Assembly: GCA_021927905.1 (NCBI GenBank)
Contig: BLLK01000020.1
Span: 310,001-374,000 of the forward strand
DNA length: 64,000 bases
Source: Chaetoceros tenuissimus
Lineage: Eukaryota > Bacillariophyta > Thalassiosirophyceae > Chaetocerotales > Chaetocerotaceae
Direction of reading: 5' to 3'
In this document: positions 50,484 to 64,000 of the stretch, piece by piece
How the letters are laid out: each line of letters begins with the position of its first letter
How positions within the stretch are numbered: position 1 is the stretch's first letter
The notes under the pieces: generated by a model
The model's input: the letters and a program-made list of their open reading frames with translations, nothing else
Database searches by the model: none
What the model was told of the DNA's origin: nothing
Position numbers and translations under genes: made by a program

Positions 50484-52078
50484 ATGTGTAAAGAGACCAG
50501 AATTAATGCAACTAATGAATTGCAATTTGACTCTGATGCAATCCTTTATCCTCAAGAATGTGCTTTAGATAGTAGTACCTTCGGTGTAACTTCTAGTAGT
50601 GCTAGTGGTAAAAAGATCGAAGACGGCGCTGTACTTCCTTTTGGTAATACTCCTCATTCAGATAATAATAATACCATGTCGCAACAAGAAGATGATGAGG
50701 ACCCACATGATACTATGATCACATTCCTCACTGGACGTACAAAGAGTGAAAGGTCCTCCAAGGAACGTGCTATTATTTTCCCCGTCAAGGTAAGTCCCTT
50801 ATTCTGCTCTTTCTGTTCACAACGAGCCTCTTCTTGTATCCTCGGATGAAATTATAGATCCAATGGCGTGTTGTTCTAACACTCGTTGATCTTTCTCTTT
50901 AACAGCTCATGTATGTTCTTCAATGTGGCAAATACAGCCACATTGTCAACTGGCAAGTTGATTCGGACCATGATGAGCATCACTTCATTGTACAAGACAT
51001 TGATGAATTCACAAAACACGTTCTTCCGTCCTTTTTCAAGGTTGCCAAGTACGAGTCCTTCCAGCGCAAGCTATACAGATGGGGCTTCATCAAGACTCGC
51101 AGAACTCGAGCTGAAAAGATGAAGTCGCCAAAATCTGTATCCTACGTTCATCCTTGCTTCAGACAGGGTGATTACAATGGTGCGGCACAGATGACTTGCT
51201 CTGGGGCTTCTGTAGAAATTTTTAAAACAACACAGAAGCACCGCAAGCGTCAACAGAAACAGAATGGAAACAAGAGCAGTTCCAAGAAACAACGTATTTC
51301 TGAAAACAACAATGATCTTGGTCAGAACAACGTGCAGCAGATAGTGACCATGCAACAACAGCCTGTTGTTCCTTCAATGCAAAGCAATTTGACACCTCTT
51401 AATTTGTCTTCCTTTCCACAAAATAACAATATGTTCATGATGATGAATCATTCGTCCTCAAATGATCCAATTGCCAGCAATTTTCTGCATACTATGCCAA
51501 CATTTCCAAATACTGGTATTTTTAATAGCAATGAACGTATCCAAGATGATTCATTTGCTGGTGCTGTCATTCCTAATTACAGTTCTACCTCGAATTCCAA
51601 CTGTGGAAGAAGTGATGACAACAAGACCATGATTTCCAAGATGAGTAATAGTTCTTCTGCGACAAGACCTGAAGAAGACATCCAACAGCTACTTGCTCGA
51701 GCTAGAACTCAGCGTGAGCTCAAGAGGATTCAAATGAATAACCTCATGAGAGAGAAAATGTTGGAAGAACTGCTACAAACTGATCCGTCGGACTGGACTG
51801 GTCCAGATGTGAATACTGTTTCTATAGAGTCTTCGATGGATACCCTTTCGAATAATAGCAATATCATGTTGATGAACACTGCTGCTGATGACGACAGTGG
51901 CAATATCAGCAATAATTCGGCAGCATCTCAATTCATGATGACTATGAATAGTGGAAACAACAATTCGATGACGAGAATGGATAGTAATATGCATTATACT
52001 TCCTTTGACAACGACACCAGGAATATGCATCAGCAAGTTATTACTGATGCATTCAATGCACTCATGAGGTCCTCTTAA
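50484..52078 (+). CDS. HSF: Heat shock transcription factor (2 exons)
   Basis: Exons 50484-50789 and 50906-52078, 116-bp intron (GTAAGT...TTTAACAG) joined in phase; 492 aa. The N-terminus is acidic (about 95 aa). The HSF DNA-binding domain spans the splice: FPVK-LMYVLQCGKYSHIVNWQ, HHFIVQDIDEFTKHVLPSFFKVAKYESFQRKLYRWGFIK, ending SYVHPCFRQGDY. Compared with the usual FVxKL opening, the first helix is slightly altered (LMYVLQ). A basic Lys/Arg/Gln stretch follows, then a long Asn/Ser/Met-rich region. A helix near residues 370-400 (IQQLLARARTQRELKRIQMNNLMREKMLEELL) may act in assembly. HSFs are the largest transcription-factor family in diatoms; targets are unknown. Confidence 0.92.
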
Positions 52079-55219: not shown

Positions 55220-58200
55220 ATGAAAGTCTCAAAGCTTTCATTCGCTGCTTTCCTGTTCTCTGCAGGAGCAAGCTTCTTCTCTCAAGGAGTAGCAGGGCAG
55301 TCATCCACTTCCTATATTTGTCCGCAAGGTGATTTAGGATCTGTTACTGCTATTGATACTTCTCCTAGCAATGGTGCAATTTCTATTGAAACTACATCTG
55401 CTGGACACCTTTGTGTACTCGCTGTTCGAGATACATCTGCATCTTCCGCTTCTGATCATATCACGAAGCCCGTTGCTCGCGGTTACGATGGACATTCTTG
55501 GGAAATAAGTGCCGGATTTCTATCCGATCTACTTCCTAAACCAACCTGCTCAGGCACTACTTGTACTATTGAAGGCCTTCCTTCTCTTGGTCCGAATGAA
55601 ACGTACATTCTTACTTCCTATTTCCATTCTGGATTTGGTGAGAAAGCGGAGGCTGTACGCTTCTTGGAACAGGCAACCTTTGGACCGACACGTGAGGGAA
55701 TTGACAAAGTCATTTCATATGGAGAGGACAGATTCAAAAAGTGGGTAGAGCATCAGATCAATGAAGTTCCTATGACATCTCATAGAGAGTATTTTCGCCG
55801 TCGCACCGTTCCTCGTCAAGAGTTTTCTTTTTATGCTGCTGCTCCAGGACCCAAGACTGCTTGTGAACGTGAAAGTAGTTGGAGAATGTATGCTTTGAGC
55901 GATCGTGATGGAATTAGATCTAGTCAATCTAGAGTTTCCAAATACATGTACATCAAGTTGATTAATGGTCGTTATGTTTGGTTCGTCGAAGGTATTGCGA
56001 GGTAAGCATTACTTGCAATGGAATATTTTGTAAAATTTTGGCTACATGGCTGGTAACTCAATTGTGCGGATTATGTTCATGTCTCTTCTTCACAGAACTA
56101 CTACAAGCTACTTACCAGATCATATTGAAAGTGATGGCACATTCATTGAAAAGTTTGAATTGTATCCTACTCTCTACAACTTATTTTACAAATATAGTCA
56201 GATGAAAGCATGTGTCGGATGCCCTGTTTATGCAATCAAAACAACTAGTGATGGAATTGATAGAGGCTATGTGGCGAACCCAAAAATTGACCTCACTGGT
56301 ATCATCAATGATCCCAATCTTGTTCCTCACACCATCGTCGATCTACCACCTATCCTTGGTCAACAAGGCTCTGCCATGATTGCTATCGATCAAGATGAAT
56401 TCTTGGATTCTCCATACTTTTCTCAGTATAACAAGAAAAATGATGAATTTTACCTCAACGACGCTAGCAGTGTCGATTCCTCTCAATGTGCTAATCATCC
56501 AAATGTGTGGATTGCAGGCTATAATACTCCTACAAAGCTGGTGATTCAAGATGGCACTAATTCAATTTTAGACAAGAATCATCCTGATGAAGAGTTTCCA
56601 CCACTCTTCGGAAGAGCTCTCAATGAAGAAACTGGTGAATATGTGTATCTAATGTTTGATCCGAAGATGGTTCTTCACAACAATACCGTCGATAATCCTA
56701 TGGTTGATGGTGGAGGATATAGAGAGTATGAAACAAGAGGCTATTACAATTGCGCAAACGCACCAAGAAACTTTATGAATGAAGATGGATGTAAGTACAT
56801 TTTCCTTGGTGGAAACTTCAATTGTATTAGTCTTGCTGACGAATGTTTTATTTTTGTTTCATTAGGTAAATTGAGCTTTTCAGAGTACGCGTGCAAGACA
56901 GGTGAAGATGGATGGACAGGTACTCTCAAGAATCCCCATAAAAAGGGAGTTGTTGTCTGTGGTTCAGTAGGAGAAGTAGCGAATGATTTGACCTTTGGTA
57001 CTGCAAATGCATTCGATTTGAAAACTGAATCTACAAAAAAAATCAATAAGGATATTTATCTATTCAATGAGTTCACTGAGTACAAGAACACTGTTTGGAC
57101 TACCCTAGCTTTATTTGATGAGGGACAACTAAGACAACGAGTCGCCTATGCTCTCTACCAGATTATTCCGATCGGTACTCCAGACACCTCTGCTTCTCCT
57201 TCCGCTGAAATTTGGTTGCAATATTATGATATTTTTGTGAGGGTAAGTGCAAATGATGTCTGAAACTCATAGAGTGTCCTGGTTTTGGTCCTAACCTTTG
57301 TTTCTTTTCATCATCAAGAATGCGTTTGGAAACTATTTCGATGTTTTGAAACAAATTGCATTTACAGATGTTATGGCAGATTGGTTAGATTACTACGACA
57401 ACATGAGTTTACAATTCAATATCGATAAATGTGACCTCGATGTAAAGACTTTGGAGCAATGTGAAAATACACATCCAGATGAGGTAAGAGGACGTTTTCA
57501 CCTCATTTTTGCTATTCTCCATTCATTCTCATAATTGATTTATGCACTTTCATAATAGAACTTCGCAAGAGAAATCATGCAATTGTTTAGTGTAGGTTTG
57601 TGGCAATTGAATATGGATGGTACAAAAAAGTACGACGACAGTGTACCTCCACAGCCTCTCCATGCCTATGATAGTTCGGATATTATGAACATGGCTAGGG
57701 CATGGACTGGCCTATCTAGAGCATATAGACACAGAGGAAATGCAGAAAGTGCAAAATGGGGACCACGTGTGGATGCCATGCACATCGAAGACAAATTCAG
57801 AGATATTTACCCAAAAGCAGACATTCTAGGAGGTTACATTGGAGATAGATATCCTTTATGTAGTGAACTTCCAATGAAGCATCACTTGAAAAAGGGTGCT
57901 ACTTATAGGCTTAATGGAGGATTTGCCAACCCAGAAATGTCAAAGGACCGTGATGAATGGGAGGGTAATGAGACTTTGTTGCGACTAGAAGTGACACCAG
58001 ACTCTCCTCTTTACGCGAAATTATGTGTGGCTCAGAATGGAGTGTGCACTTGGCCTGGTAAGGTTGTTCTTTCTGAAGATTTGGATTACAGTACTAGTGA
58101 AGCGAAAAATGGTGAAGAATATCTAGTTGACACTATTCGTACAATTAGAATCGTTTTGCCAGATCAGAAGTATCTTCATTTTGAATATATTCGGCAAGCC

Positions 58201-61200
58201 TGTGTCGAACATTTCTTCCTTGGGAGCGATGCAAAGAAGATTATTCGTGGTGATATTGGGTAAGCCTTTCCAATTATTCGTTCATAAAATTTTCGATTAT
58301 TCAATCTAACATTTGCATTACTCATTCATCTCAGCACTGATAATATCGTTGATGAAAGTGTCTGTGCGGATCCTAGGCGTGAAATTGCAACTGAATCCTG
58401 TTGTGAGAGTAATTGGGAGACATCTTCGAATGCAGCAGATCAATACTCTTCCAGATTTTGTTTCTATCAAGGTGAAAGAATGAGCTATGAGTCGGCAGTT
58501 CAACGTTGTGCTGCAAATAACAAGCAACAATGCACACCTCGAAGACATGGAGGTGGCTTATGTAACTTTGATTTAAACAGGGATCTTTGGTATTCTTGGA
58601 CCACCTCTAGCTGTATGACTAGAGCAAAGATTTCATTCGATTCAGGATTGATAGGTCGCGTTGACTACCCAGATGCAGACTACGCAGGCCACCGAAATGT
58701 AGCAAAAATCGTGAATGAAAACCAAAAGAATTTTGTGAAGGTGGCGTGGATTACCAACCCAATTTTGCCTACATCAGCAGCTGAGTGTAACATCATTTCA
58801 TCTTGCTACTCTATCAGCGATGGCTGTATTTGTGACACTAGTGTTGTCGAAGCCCCTGTATTCTCAAAAAGTTCTGAAATTTTGTCGAGCTCTGCAATTT
58901 TTTCCAGTCTATTCACTGCAAGCTATAATGATGCTGGCTCTATTTCCTTAGGGAATTGTGGCATTGAGGGAGTTCTAGTTTATACAACTTCCAATAGTGA
59001 TTCATGCGATAGTTTTAGCACAGAAACATTCTTTGGTTTCGAGGATCATCACGGAATTCAGCGTTATTTGAAGAATACTTTATCCACTGTCACAATAGTA
59101 GGTATCGAAGATGCAACGTTTAGAAATATTCCTCACTTTATTGACATGGTGGATTCGATTCTGATGTTCGAGATATGTATTATGAAACTGATGCCGGTGA
59201 GTTGATATAGGCCATGCACCTGAATTCATATTGTTGTTCTAATTTCATTTTACTCACGACTTGCTATTGGCAGTAATTGAACATTTTTTCCATCATCCTT
59301 CACACGCGCCATTCTTGGCAACAAGATTGATTCAGCGCTTTGGAATCAGTAATCCAAGTCCAGGCTTCGTTAAAAGAGTAGCATCAGCATATGTCAAGGG
59401 TGAATACCTAGGCATTGGCTCTGGAAAGTATGGTGATCTTGGTGCTCTGATTTCAGCAGTCCTACTTGACACTGAATCTAGAAGCACTACTCTCGATGCT
59501 GATCCATCTCATGGTCAGTTGAGAGAGCCAATCATTAAAGTCACTTCCTTGTTGCGTTCTATGGACGTTCATTATACATCACCAGAAGGATGGAGAAAAT
59601 TTCGAAGGATTAGTAATATTGGACAAAGCCCCTATGGCGCACCTTCAGTATTTTCATTCTTTTTACCTGAGTATGCTCCAAGTGGGGCGATTGAAAAAGC
59701 TAAGTTGGTTGCTCCAGAATCTATGGTTATGACAGGAAAACAAGTTACTACTCGTAAGTCTTTGCTTTGTGTCAAATTGAATAAATATATCCTATTTCCA
59801 ACTCACGATATGCTCGAAGTTCTTGATGGTTTATTCACAACAGTGAAAATGGGTCTAGTCTCTTGCTACAGTGGATTCGTAAGTAGTCTATACCTCTTCT
59901 ACTTTTCATACTGATGCATTGCATTGATATTTCTCAAATTAAATTTTATAATAACTTAGGGAGACACTATGGGAGCTTGTCCAATTGAGGAAGGTAACAC
60001 AGACGACGGACAAGGATACTTAACTTATACAATTCCATCAGGAGCTAGCATGGATGAGGCTCTTGACGATTTAGCTTTATTACTAACAGGCGGGAAACTT
60101 TCGATGACAAATCGAGGTATCATTCGTAGTGTTATGAACCAGTATTATACAAGTGATAAAAACAAAGCAACACGCATTGCTCAGCAACTTCTATTAGCAA
60201 CACCAGAGTTTCATACTTGGGGAAGTATTCATTCCAATTCAGGTGTACAGAGGCAGATTGAAGGTTACACACAACCTCCTTCGCACTCTTACAAGTCAGT
60301 TGTTTTCTTTTTCATGGGAGGTGGAGCTGATAGCTATAATATGATTGTACCAACTGGAGGATGTTCCCACAAGGACATGTATGCAGAATATTCCAATGCT
60401 CGTGGGCCACTTGCACTAGCAAAAGACACACTACTACCAATTACCGATAATAGTGGAACTCAACGTTGCTCTCAGTTTGGTATCCATCCCTCCTTCAAGA
60501 CACTTCAGGAACTCTACAACAGTGGAGATGCAAACTTTTACATGAATGTTGGAATTCTTTCTGAGCCAATGACTAAGACTGACGACTGGATTACCAAATC
60601 CAAGATCCGTTTGTTTGCTCACAACCATATGACCAGAGAGCAACTTGCTCTTGATCCTCATGACGTGAACCCTGGTACTGGAGTTGGGGGAAGGCTGCTA
60701 GATGTTTTGAAGAGAAATGGTTATCAAACCTCTGGAAATACGGTGGATGGTAGCTCTCTACTCAATGTCGGTGATTCGTATTACTCTAATCCTACATCAA
60801 CAATATCTGCTGGAGGAATTTCCTTGATAGATACAGTCTCTTCTCTTCCTCCAAATGAAATGATGAATCTAGTGAAGCAACTCAATGGAGATGGCGATGA
60901 TAGCAATTCACTTTTAGGAGACACTTGGTCTCAGCGATTATCCCAGAGTCTTCACGAATATGAAACAGCTTTGGAGATTGATGAGGCAATTCAAAGTGGT
61001 GTTTTCAACATGAATGGGTACCCAAACAAAGATGCTCTAGATAAACAATTCTTGTCAGTCGCTCAGTATATGAAATCAAGACATATGAGAAAGGTTGATC
61101 GCGAAGTTTACGTCGTTGGACAGGGATCCTACGATATGCATGGTGGCTTAGAGACTCTTGCAGGTCAATTTCTTCAAGCAAATAATGCATTAGCAAATTT

Positions 61201-64000
61201 TGTGAAAGAGTTAAAAGACCAAGGACTATGGGAGGATACTGTCATTGTAATGGGTTCAGATTTCGGAAGAAGTATTTCTCCAAATTCAAATGGAGGAAGC
61301 GATCATGCGTGGGGAGTAAGTTTTCTCTCGACTCGATTTCTTTCTTTCTATTGATAACCATTATGATTTAATTTCCTCACCTTACTGTTCAACTACTAGG
61401 GAAATTATTGGACTCTTGGTGGTGGATTGAATGGTGGAAAAATACTAGGAGAGTATCCTGAGCATCTATCTGAGAAAAGTGACTACTGGGTTCGAAGAGG
61501 ACGTCTAATTCCAACAACTCCTTGGGATTCAATTTGGAATGGTATAGCTGAATGGATGGGAGTTCAAGGTGATAGAGACTTACAGTTTGTGTTGCCAAAT
61601 CGTATCAACTTTGACAAATGTAGTAAAATGTTCAGAGGACACGATCTATTCCTCGATGTTCCATATTCCCCTTGTATTGATGATTATGACGGGGATGGAG
61701 TCGAAGATAGTATAGATCGGTGCAATGATACCGAGTACTGGAACGGAGAAACAGTCAATTCGAGCGGCTGTCAGGATAATCAGCCAATAGCACCTATTCA
61801 AGCTCCGATCTCGGCACCATCCACACCAACGACACCTATTCAAGCTCCGATCTCAGTACCAACCACACAAACTCCAGTTTCAAATCCAGTCAGCGCTCCA
61901 GTTGGTAGTACTGTTGAATACGAAGCAGAGTATGCTACTTGGGATACTTCCTCACAGATTGGAACATCCAATACTGGTTTCACTGGAGAAGGTTATGTTA
62001 ACATGGGTGGAAACGGGAGTTGGGTAGAATGGCCTACAGTTGCTTCGAGAAGTGGAACATGCACTCTAATATTCAGATACGCGACTACAGATCAACGCCA
62101 GGCTATGATTACTATCGATGGGAACAACGCTGGAATTGTTGAATTTGAAGCAGCAGGTACAACATGGACAGAATATGGTGAAGACTCCCTTGTAGTTGTA
62201 GATTGTCCTTCCATAACAATGACTATTAGACTTCAAGCAATAACCTCAAATGGTGGCCCAAATGTGGATAGTATCAAAGTTATATTTGCAGAAAGCACTT
62301 CAGAACCAAGTTCTCCATCTGTGACAACAAGTTCTCCGACAAACTCACCAAGTATGAACCAATCAGTTTCGCCTACAGCAATCGTAAGTTTCTTTCTTTA
62401 CAATTTGAGCATTTGTTGATCATTCATCGCCGCTTATAAACTATATAAACTCTCAATTTTAATTATTCCTTTGTTAGGTTACAAACTCTCCTACAGTTTC
62501 AAAAAGTGCACAACCTAGTAATAAACCTACGATTCAGAAATCCGAGTTGCCTTCTCAAAGTCCAGTTGCAATTACTAGTGAACCTAGTGCGAATACTAAT
62601 TCACCAACCACAAGTCCGGTTGCCAGTCCAACATCTTCCCCTTCTTCACCTCCTAGTATTGCACAAGTTACAAGCGCGCCTACTACAGGTTCAGCTCCTA
62701 CTGGAGGAGTATCGTCAGTCCCATACACTTTCCGTGAAGCTGAAGATCCAAGCAACATCATTTCTGGCGATGCAGTCGTATCTTCCACCAACCAAGGTTA
62801 CACCGGCAGTGGATGGGTAGACATGGGTGGCAATGGATCCTTCGTGGAGTTTACCAATGTGAACTTTGGCGGTGGAGGATCATGTCAACTGAAGTTCCGC
62901 TATGCACTCAAGAAAAGGCAGGCTCCTATCAAGCCATGCATGGTGAGTATCAATGGTGTTGATGCTGGCTACATGACCTTCCGTGCGACAGGACCAGGTG
63001 GAGAGTACTATGGATACGATGAGGTAGTGACGACATGTCCATCGGGAGTGTTCAATGTACGTTTGACGGGTATCAGTGATTATGGAGCACCGAATCTAGA
63101 CAATCTAGCAGTATCACCACTAGGAGTATCACCATTGGATGTCGCAGCAACAGTATACGAAGCTGAGGATCCCGTCAATGATATTCACAATGGAGTAGTG
63201 AAGACAAGCTATACAGGCTACACAGGTAGTGGGTCTGTGAGTATGGCTACTGAATTGGGTACATATTTGGAGTTTAAGAATGTCAACTTTGGTAGTGGAG
63301 GATCATGCAAGATTGATTTTCGATACTCTTTGCCGAAGCAGAGTGACTCTATCCGTACTTGTAAGGTTGAGATAGATGGTAATGAAGTTGGTATTGTGAA
63401 CTTCAGCGAGTCCGGTCCAAGCTACAATGAGTATACAAGTGAGATGATGTTTATTGATTGTCCATCTGGTGTTGGCAATGTGCGTATCACTTCGTTGTCA
63501 TCAAGTGGTGGAGCGAATATTGATCATATGTTGGTAGCATCTGTCGGAGCATCACCTTTGGATATTCCACTGACTGAGGTGTATGAGGCTGAGGCTGATG
63601 GCAATATCTTCTTTGATACAGCATTTTCGGATGTGTTTGCAGGGTATGGTGGTAGTGGGTTTGTAGGTTTATCGAATCAGTATTCTTGGTTGGAGTTTAC
63701 TGGTGTAGACTTCAAAAATGGAGGATCATGCAAGCTTGAGGTTCGATACACATTGAAGCAAAGCTCATCTTCTCCGCGTCCATGTGGAGTCTCAATCAAT
63801 GGTGAGGAAGTAGGTGTGTTGAGGTTTGATGGTACAGGTCCAGTGTGGGGGACATGGGGTACTGATATGTTGGTATTTGATTGTCCGGCAGGATTATGGA
63901 ATGTGAGAGTGACAGCATTGTCAACGTTTAGAGGACCAAACATTGATAGCATGCTTCTTTCTTCTTTAGGTGTCGCAGGCGAGAATCCTAGCTCGGGATC
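55220..64000 (+). CDS. Secreted DUF1800-DUF1501 fusion with TSP3-like loop and four CBM6/35-like modules; 3' end outside window
   Basis: ATG 55220 opens a signal peptide (LSFAAFLFSAGASFFSQGVAG). Exons: 55220-56001, 56096-56790, 56866-57242, 57319-57483, 57559-58259, 58335-59196, 59274-59753, 59820-59878, 59960-61315, 61400-62383, 62478-64000 (open). Introns are 66-94 bp with GTAAG/GTGAG donors. About 2,660 residues are visible. DUF1800 begins at AVRFLEQATFGPTREGID and includes NFAREIMQLFSVGLWQLN and ATRLIQRFGISNPSP. DUF1501 follows: VVFFFMGGGADSYNMIVP, FGIHPSFKTLQELYNSGDA, VIVMGSDFGRSISPN, HAWGGNYWTLGGGLNGGK. Then DDYDGDGVEDSIDRC (TSP3-like Ca loop), Pro/Thr/Ser linkers and four beta-sandwich modules (YEAE... 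GYTGSGWVDMGGNGSFVEF). Phase fails by one base near 59160, between DMVDS and DVRDMYYETDA. Function unknown; in bacteria the two domains are usually paired genes. Confidence 0.85.

Follow-up and report, generated by a model that had tools for sequence, protein, structure and literature searches.

How did two bacterial protein families, DUF1800 and DUF1501, come to be encoded by a single gene in the diatom Chaetoceros tenuissimus, and what could the resulting protein do? Both families are widespread in bacteria. The gene lies at the right end of a stretch of 64,000 nucleotides, referred to here as the window (contig BLLK01000020.1; G000:C14:310001-374000 in the genome coordinates used below). The genome comprises 41.03 Mb in 68 contigs and has 11 matches to the silicon transporter family PF03842, and it can therefore be taken as that of a diatom. 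A preliminary description of the window had placed both families in this gene, in the order known from bacteria, and this is confirmed by the results below. The gene is not unique, as 18 such loci were found in the genome. They form a diatom family of fused, probably secreted proteins of bacterial type, whose kinship and architecture have good support. No published description of a DUF1800-DUF1501 fusion was found in the literature searched, which left most subscription journals outside; databases may list such proteins.

Two families in one open reading frame

Exon 9 of the window gene is one open frame that encodes about 85 residues of the end of DUF1800, a linker of about 17 residues and most of DUF1501. 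Because this exon alone holds both, the fusion is independent of predicted splicing. When the gene was searched exon by exon with the hidden Markov models of Pfam, as had been proposed, both families were found over their curated cut-offs. DUF1800 (PF08811, cut-off 26.1 bits) is matched in exon 5 (33.5 bits, E 3.4e-8) and exon 7 (65.5 bits, E 6.4e-18), with weak matches in exons 1 and 4, and DUF1501 (PF07394, cut-off 27 bits) is matched in exon 9 (85.6 bits, E 5.2e-24). The suggested bacterial kinship of both parts was borne out by profiles made from bacteria only. On the spliced reading of the window, in which the two sides of a frame break in exon 6 are read apart, the DUF1800 profile is matched over positions 44-569 of 572 in three segments (E 4.9e-111), and the DUF1501 profile over positions 36-446 of 447 (E 8.8e-83). 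The DUF1800 motif DEN-x-ARE-xx-QLF is kept, with the letters D, E, N, A, R, E, Q, L and F at those columns; its DEN.ARE part straddles the junction of exons 4 and 5. An NCBIfam scan of the window protein gave nothing near any cut-off.

Ten GT-AG introns divide the gene into 11 exons, the number given earlier. The gene models in this study come from a simple, own-written finder that uses no RNA data, and some of their starts and ends are wrong; in the window gene the finder is unable to cross the frame break and fuses exons 7 and 8, giving 10 exons. The parts of the gene are as follows (positions are those of the window).

55220..64000, + strand: the portion of the gene that the window contains; coding continues beyond the window end up to 65786, stop included (G000:C14:365220-375786)
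55220..56001, + strand: exon 1, putative signal peptide (by eye), followed by the diatom N-terminal stretch and the first DUF1800 segment (about 55619-55918)
56096..56790, + strand: exon 2, bulk of the first large DUF1800 insert (about 320 residues in total, no Pfam match)
56866..57242, + strand: exon 3, end of insert 1, then DUF1800 segment 2 from about 57048
57319..57483, + strand: exon 4, DUF1800 core
57559..58259, + strand: exon 5, DUF1800 core, then the beginning of insert 2 (about 430 residues in total)
58335..59196, + strand: exon 6, insert 2, then the beginning of DUF1800 segment 3, with a single frame break near 59150
59274..59753, + strand: exon 7, C-terminal third of DUF1800
59844..59878, + strand: exon 8, short, DUF1800
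59960..61315, + strand: exon 9, end of DUF1800 (to about 60214), linker and most of DUF1501 (from about 60266)
61400..62383, + strand: exon 10, last part of DUF1501 (until about 61615), then a loop with weak likeness to thrombospondin-3 (about 61673-61726) and the first CBM6/35-like module (about 61919-62293)
62478..64000, + strand: exon 11, part inside the window, Pro/Ser/Thr-rich linker and three CBM6/35-like modules
to 65786, + strand: exon 11, part beyond the window, second copy of the three-module block

Downstream of DUF1501, carbohydrate-binding modules (CBMs) are found. Exon 10 matches CBM_35_2 (28.5 bits, cut-off 23, E 1.7e-6), and CBM_6 is matched by three stretches of exon 11 inside the window (72.9 bits, cut-off 28.9, E 3.7e-20). 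At least four such modules had been counted before, and this stands; the full gene, which is not confined to the window, has seven CBM6/35-like modules, four of them within it. The last three were assigned as a tandem copy of the preceding three. The block starting at 62721 is repeated from 64536, at an offset of 1815 bases, and the copies are 98-99% identical over about 1.2 kb; this duplication is a recent change. The calcium loop that had also been proposed comes down to a weak match to the thrombospondin type 3 calcium repeat (12.4 bits against a cut-off of 25, E 0.13).

A family of 18 loci

The 18 loci, window included, were found with the bacterial DUF1501 profile; Pfam alone finds DUF1501 at 16 places, the window again included. 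In 16 of the 17 paralogs, with L011 as the exception, a single predicted exon reaches from the last part of DUF1800 into DUF1501; by domain bounds, the linkers at this junction measure -9 to 34 residues. A putative signal peptide was recognised by eye in the window gene, L012, L013, L020, L025 and L027, and several other models begin inside the gene. In two pairs of loci, L030/L014 and L021/L022, the members are probably opposite ends of a single long gene.

The two inserts that split the DUF1800 part of the window protein are found at the same two points in 13 of the 17 paralog models; L018 shows the second insert, and the models of L014, L015 and L022 cover the 3' part only. No bacterial row, among domain-trimmed sequences, has an insert of at least 40 residues at these points (L032 has one of 40 residues elsewhere). 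The inserts of the window protein and its paralogs matched no Pfam family over cut-off, and insert 2 matched no PDB chain up to E 0.5. Their fixed positions in the window and 13 paralogs indicate that the inserts were probably in place before the family grew to 18 loci. The related copies L015, L018 and L028 have one more gap, the third, in their C-terminal DUF1800 segment; it measures about 130-200 residues.

The paralogs also differ in what is attached. L014 carries three CBM_6 stretches, and cupredoxin-like tails are seen on L012, L025 and L023. The repetitive tail at L029:814-2934 (- strand) gave a Pfam match to Lactamase_B_3 of 41 bits in which no single stretch passes, and this match is probably spurious.

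The bacterial gene pair

Bacterial relatives were collected from 84,980 species genomes, which were scanned with an alignment headed by a paralog from the diatom, and the best 80 loci among the matches listed were kept, so that the set is biased towards the best matches to this alignment. In 77 of these 80 loci, a DUF1800 frame lies directly upstream of DUF1501 on the same strand, and the remaining three loci start at the end of a contig. The two families are fused in none of the 80. The pair is present in Verrucomicrobiota, Bacteroidota, Pseudomonadota, Acidobacteriota and Pirellulaceae (L068, L106), and at several loci, for example in Photobacterium, a single stop separates the two frames, which are in register. 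Further samples of 79, 150 and 118 genomes were taken from the phyla of Pelagicoccus, Exilibacterium and a Saprospiraceae genome. At E <= 1e-40, DUF1800 was present in 18, 26 and 48 of these genomes, with 32, 34 and 80 matches (146 in total). No DUF1800 frame longer than 700 residues was found in the samples of 150 and 118 genomes; in the 13 longest frames of the 79-genome sample (752-2253 residues), the fusion was absent and DUF1501 was in a separate frame each time.

The bacterial pair, as in Pelagicoccus (L036) and Vibrio maritimus (L033), thus has the same domains (PF08811, PF07394), order and conserved motifs as the diatom protein. It differs in that it consists of two proteins, lacks large inserts at the two diatom DUF1800 points and has a DUF1501 that starts with two arginines (RR, Tat-type). 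Of the 81 bacterial rows, 69 have letters at this point and all of these show the RR; no diatom row has letters in that region. Extracellular accessory modules accompany some bacterial pairs as they do the diatom protein, positioned in the scanned cases N-terminal of DUF1800 or C-terminal of DUF1501. Among seven bacterial DUF1800 frames of the longest type scanned with Pfam, four have PA14, five CHRD, three TSP3_bac and one a PKD-type domain, and L129 has none of these; because the seven were picked for length, they give no rate. The DUF1501 protein of Photobacterium carries an F5/8C module. The addition of adhesion modules that had been proposed is therefore not confined to eukaryotes: PA14, PKD, CHRD, TSP3 or F5/8C modules are present in some bacterial partners.

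The side-by-side arrangement had been described as typical of Planctomycetes and other bacteria. It holds for the bacterial set above, whereas typicality in planctomycetes is not supported in the genome of Stieleria (G002). Among the best candidates, which alone were scored, this genome has at least 78 DUF1501 matches at E <= 1e-15. It does hold one DUF1800-DUF1501 pair (L085), in line with the two Pirellulaceae loci, but the nine DUF1501 genes inspected follow open reading frames (ORFs) of 859-1362 residues, and no DUF1800 was found in the eight stretches examined. Two of the nine upstream ORFs were scanned and have the composition PSCyt1-PSCyt2-PSD1 (DUF1549/DUF1553). In this arrangement, DUF1501 is likewise beside a larger partner, which in the two scanned cases carries a lectin-like Laminin_G_3 module. 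This partner belongs to a cytochrome-bearing family without detectable kinship to DUF1800; a relation of DUF1800 to PSCyt2/PSD1 is not supported by hhalign (probability 0.1).

Two further settings of these families have been described. In Dickeya, Pectobacterium, Brenneria and Agrobacterium vitis, DUF1800/DUF1501 operons have been proposed, in the cited text, to be functionally linked to chitin synthase (PMC5122149). These operons contain the same gene pair as the diatom fusion, but a search of the diatom genome for PF03142, a chitin synthase family, came up empty (PF01644 was outside the search), and a chitin link was rejected for the diatom family. Among algae, Emiliania huxleyi also has DUF1800 genes, which are enriched among upregulated genes (2/10); the cited text is silent on a fusion with DUF1501 (PMC7563939).

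A virus was considered as the vehicle of the gene pair and rejected, as no fused copy was found in the phage and IMG/VR searches. The phage collection gave no match at E 0.01, and the window protein had none in IMG/VR. With alignment A3, 14 IMG/VR loci with a bacterial-type DUF1501 were found, five of which also have DUF1800 in a separate frame. The contigs with such a separate-frame pair (L135, L136, L137, L139 and L148) could be mis-binned bacterial DNA.

Origin of the diatom genes

The phylogenies suggested in the preliminary description were made for both domains; they group the diatom rows and single out no donor. In both trees, the diatom rows form one clade (18 rows, support of 100 in the Shimodaira-Hasegawa-like approximate likelihood ratio test, SH-aLRT; 15 rows, 100/100, in the careful trees). 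In the careful DUF1800 tree, the sister group of the diatom rows consists of six Opitutales rows, from Pelagicoccus and its kin (99/98), and the approximately unbiased (AU) test does not reject a placement beside seven gamma/acidobacterial rows (p 0.155). For DUF1501, the AU test does not reject the Opitutales as sister (p 0.305 careful, p 0.844 quick). Because DUF1501 leaves the sister open and the AU tests reject neither placement, no donor is named. The trees are unrooted, and the direction from bacteria to diatom is based on the wide bacterial spread of the families. In the quick trees, none of 99 DUF1501 rows and three of 101 DUF1800 rows (L068, L015 and L030, with few letters) were dropped. 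The careful trees used 44 hand-picked rows of the 81 bacterial ones, leaving out L031 with its long branch, and dropped three of 18 diatom rows for DUF1501 (L015, L020, L022) and five of 20 for DUF1800 (L014, L015, L021, L022, L030).

Predicted structures and conserved residues

The DUF1501 fold was predicted on a Pelagicoccus proxy, using an alignment of 56 rows that includes the DUF1501 exon of the window. The model has a mean predicted local distance difference test (pLDDT) value of 87 and, in Foldseek, gives 36 PDB matches at E <= 0.001 with probabilities of 0.91-1.00. These are choline sulfatase, lipoteichoic acid synthase (LtaS), carrageenan sulfatases and kin, with a probability of 1.00 to choline sulfatase and LtaS. 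On this proxy, DUF1501 has an alkaline-phosphatase/sulfatase-like fold by prediction, as had been proposed. By sequence, no PDB relative was found: the best match of the window exon has an E of 0.22 (LtaP), and the DUF1501 profile has two matches (E 0.46 and 0.69), both to unrelated GTPases. The Pfam Sulfatase family (PF00884) reaches 23.2 bits in exon 9, under its curated cut-off of 25.

Six residues (D57, D316, H318, R362, D372 and H373 in profile numbering) do not vary in any of the 81 bacterial and 18 diatom rows. H150 is likewise invariant (81 of 81 bacterial rows, 17 of 17 diatom rows), and at position 359 only D or E occurs. All bacterial and diatom rows with letters there thus keep the putative metal ligands. 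This Asp/His pattern and the predicted fold resemble those of the S1 sulfatases and the alkaline-phosphatase superfamily, to which choline sulfatase and LtaS belong, although the Asp-x-His spacing of DUF1501 presumably differs from that of alkaline phosphatase. Unlike S1 sulfatases, the DUF1501 of the window has no C/S-x-P-x-R motif and no clear nucleophile; the motif was found in two of 81 bacterial and one of 18 diatom domains.

The Pelagicoccus DUF1800 model (L036:6180-7730, m955b516bbc58; pLDDT 90.7) consists almost entirely of helices. In the PDB, Foldseek found nothing better than E 2.2 for it, and a sequence search of solved structures found nothing up to E 5. DUF1800 is possibly an unsolved fold, with the model as the candidate.

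Possible function and alternatives

Following the Rosetta-stone argument, the natural fusion indicates that DUF1800 and DUF1501 work as one unit. The best reading of the available sequences is that this unit is a secreted metallo-hydrolase or transferase acting on extracellular glycans, with DUF1800 as partner, derived from a bacterial pair acquired by the diatom; a rough probability of 0.5 is given to it. Its enzyme part is plausible, judged by the predicted fold and the conserved residues. A diatom ancestor would have gained the bacterial pair, as kinship and distribution suggest. The two reading frames are now one, as the single-exon junction shows, and the RR-type start of bacterial DUF1501 is gone; one N-terminal secretion signal, recognised by eye, probably serves both parts. 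After the expansion, copies may have acquired different accessory parts. The secreted chimera would belong to the alkaline-phosphatase/sulfatase superfamily and act as a metal-dependent hydrolase or group transferase, in which DUF1501 could supply the metal site (D57, H150, D316, H318, the acid at 359, D372 and H373) without a formylglycine motif. DUF1800 may act as an obligate partner, made of helices, by which the active site is shaped or covered, and covalent linkage would fix a 1:1 ratio and joint export. In the window protein, the CBM arm could be an anchor to cell-surface or exuded polysaccharide. If true, the diatom would have adopted a bacterial gene pair for the algal cell surface. 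The diatom copies are single-chain, probably secreted versions of these families that can be expressed and assayed, and a family of 18 loci is suitable for tagging and knock-out.

Several points weigh against this reading. The structures are predictions for Pelagicoccus proteins rather than for those of the diatom, and the TM-scores to PDB entries are low, between 0.23 and 0.49 over the 50 rows listed. The DUF1501 alignment has no evident conserved nucleophile and no conserved His after D372-H373. Profile position 294 of DUF1800 is His in every one of the 80 bacterial rows but Arg in all 16 diatom rows. The two domain trees disagree on the sister group, near-identical loci could include haplotype copies, and the gene models are without RNA support. 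Finally, the window copy may be non-functional because of its frame break.

This break may be due to a young pseudogene or an assembly error. Relative to the nearest paralog, L014, the reading frame shifts once near 59150, between conserved DUF1800 motifs on either side, and the canonical donor of intron 6 and a motif shared with L014 fit the second frame only. Small indel errors are common in Nanopore/Illumina-type assemblies. That the window copy has recently become a pseudogene, or that its break is specific to one allele, with relatives intact at that place, is a serious possibility, if somewhat less probable than the contrary; against it, all ten other exons are open and their splicing keeps the frame. 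The assembly has a single copy of the region and hence no second one to decide the question, and the published assembly that it resembles was made, according to the cited text, from Illumina and Nanopore reads (PMC8613185).

The attachments of the paralogs point to a different chemistry, in which cytochrome-b5-like and cupredoxin-like parts pass electrons while DUF1800 and DUF1501 oxidise glycans; the bacterial counterpart would be DUF1501 with PSCyt, the cytochrome arrangement of the two planctomycete partners described above. Such a redox system is held to be unlikely. The tail of L012 matches stellacyanin (E 9.6e-6), while circumsporozoite-protein rows match its Pro/Ser-rich part, and the tail of L025 matches plastocyanin (E 0.016). 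However, cupredoxin families in Pfam had no match in the four tails scanned (L012, L023, L024, L025), and those of L012 and L025 gave no Pfam match at all. Insert 1 has a cytochrome-b5-like stretch in L028 (Pfam E 6.5e-4; E 0.018 to the cytochrome b5 1cxy) and L017 (Pfam E 0.0016), but both Pfam matches are below cut-off. The motif HPG[GM], also inside insert 1, is present in L013, L017, L018 and L028, as HPGG in L013 and L018, yet the L013 exon has no Pfam match. Moreover, the window copy has neither part, and the predicted DUF1501 fold is of the hydrolase type.

The protein could also be a catalytically idle adhesion or wall-matrix protein, in which an old enzyme fold has become a scaffold for sugar-binding modules. 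The recent CBM duplication, the long Ser/Pro/Thr-rich linkers and the lack of an evident nucleophile agree with this, but idle copies would be expected to lose the metal ligands, which all 18 diatom rows keep where they have letters; an idle scaffold is accordingly thought doubtful. Two separate genes or bacterial contamination, for which nothing was found in favour, are hardly credible in view of the single-exon junctions in the window and 16 of 17 paralogs, the introns and a 2.4 Mb contig that also bears silicon-transporter genes.

Beyond the glycan-active metalloenzyme preferred here, a bolder and rather improbable proposal can be made. The 18 loci may encode a so far unrecognised class of two-part extracellular enzyme, widespread in bacteria as a gene pair and captured whole by diatoms, with a nucleophile-less alkaline-phosphatase-type core and a helical protein of unsolved fold. 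These would be joined in a single chain with redox or sugar-binding attachments, and the enzyme would build or remodel surface glycans.

Other genes

Another silicon transporter lies about 30 kb to the left of the window (G000:C14:278825-280192). At G000:C17:442278-446357 (- strand), three silicon-transporter matches are found in a row, each in an open frame of 1459 residues; the last of these matches crosses two stops, and the row is perhaps a fused triple transporter. Within the window, the open frame at 50903-52078 (+ strand) resembles, by eye, a DNA-binding protein of the heat-shock-factor type.

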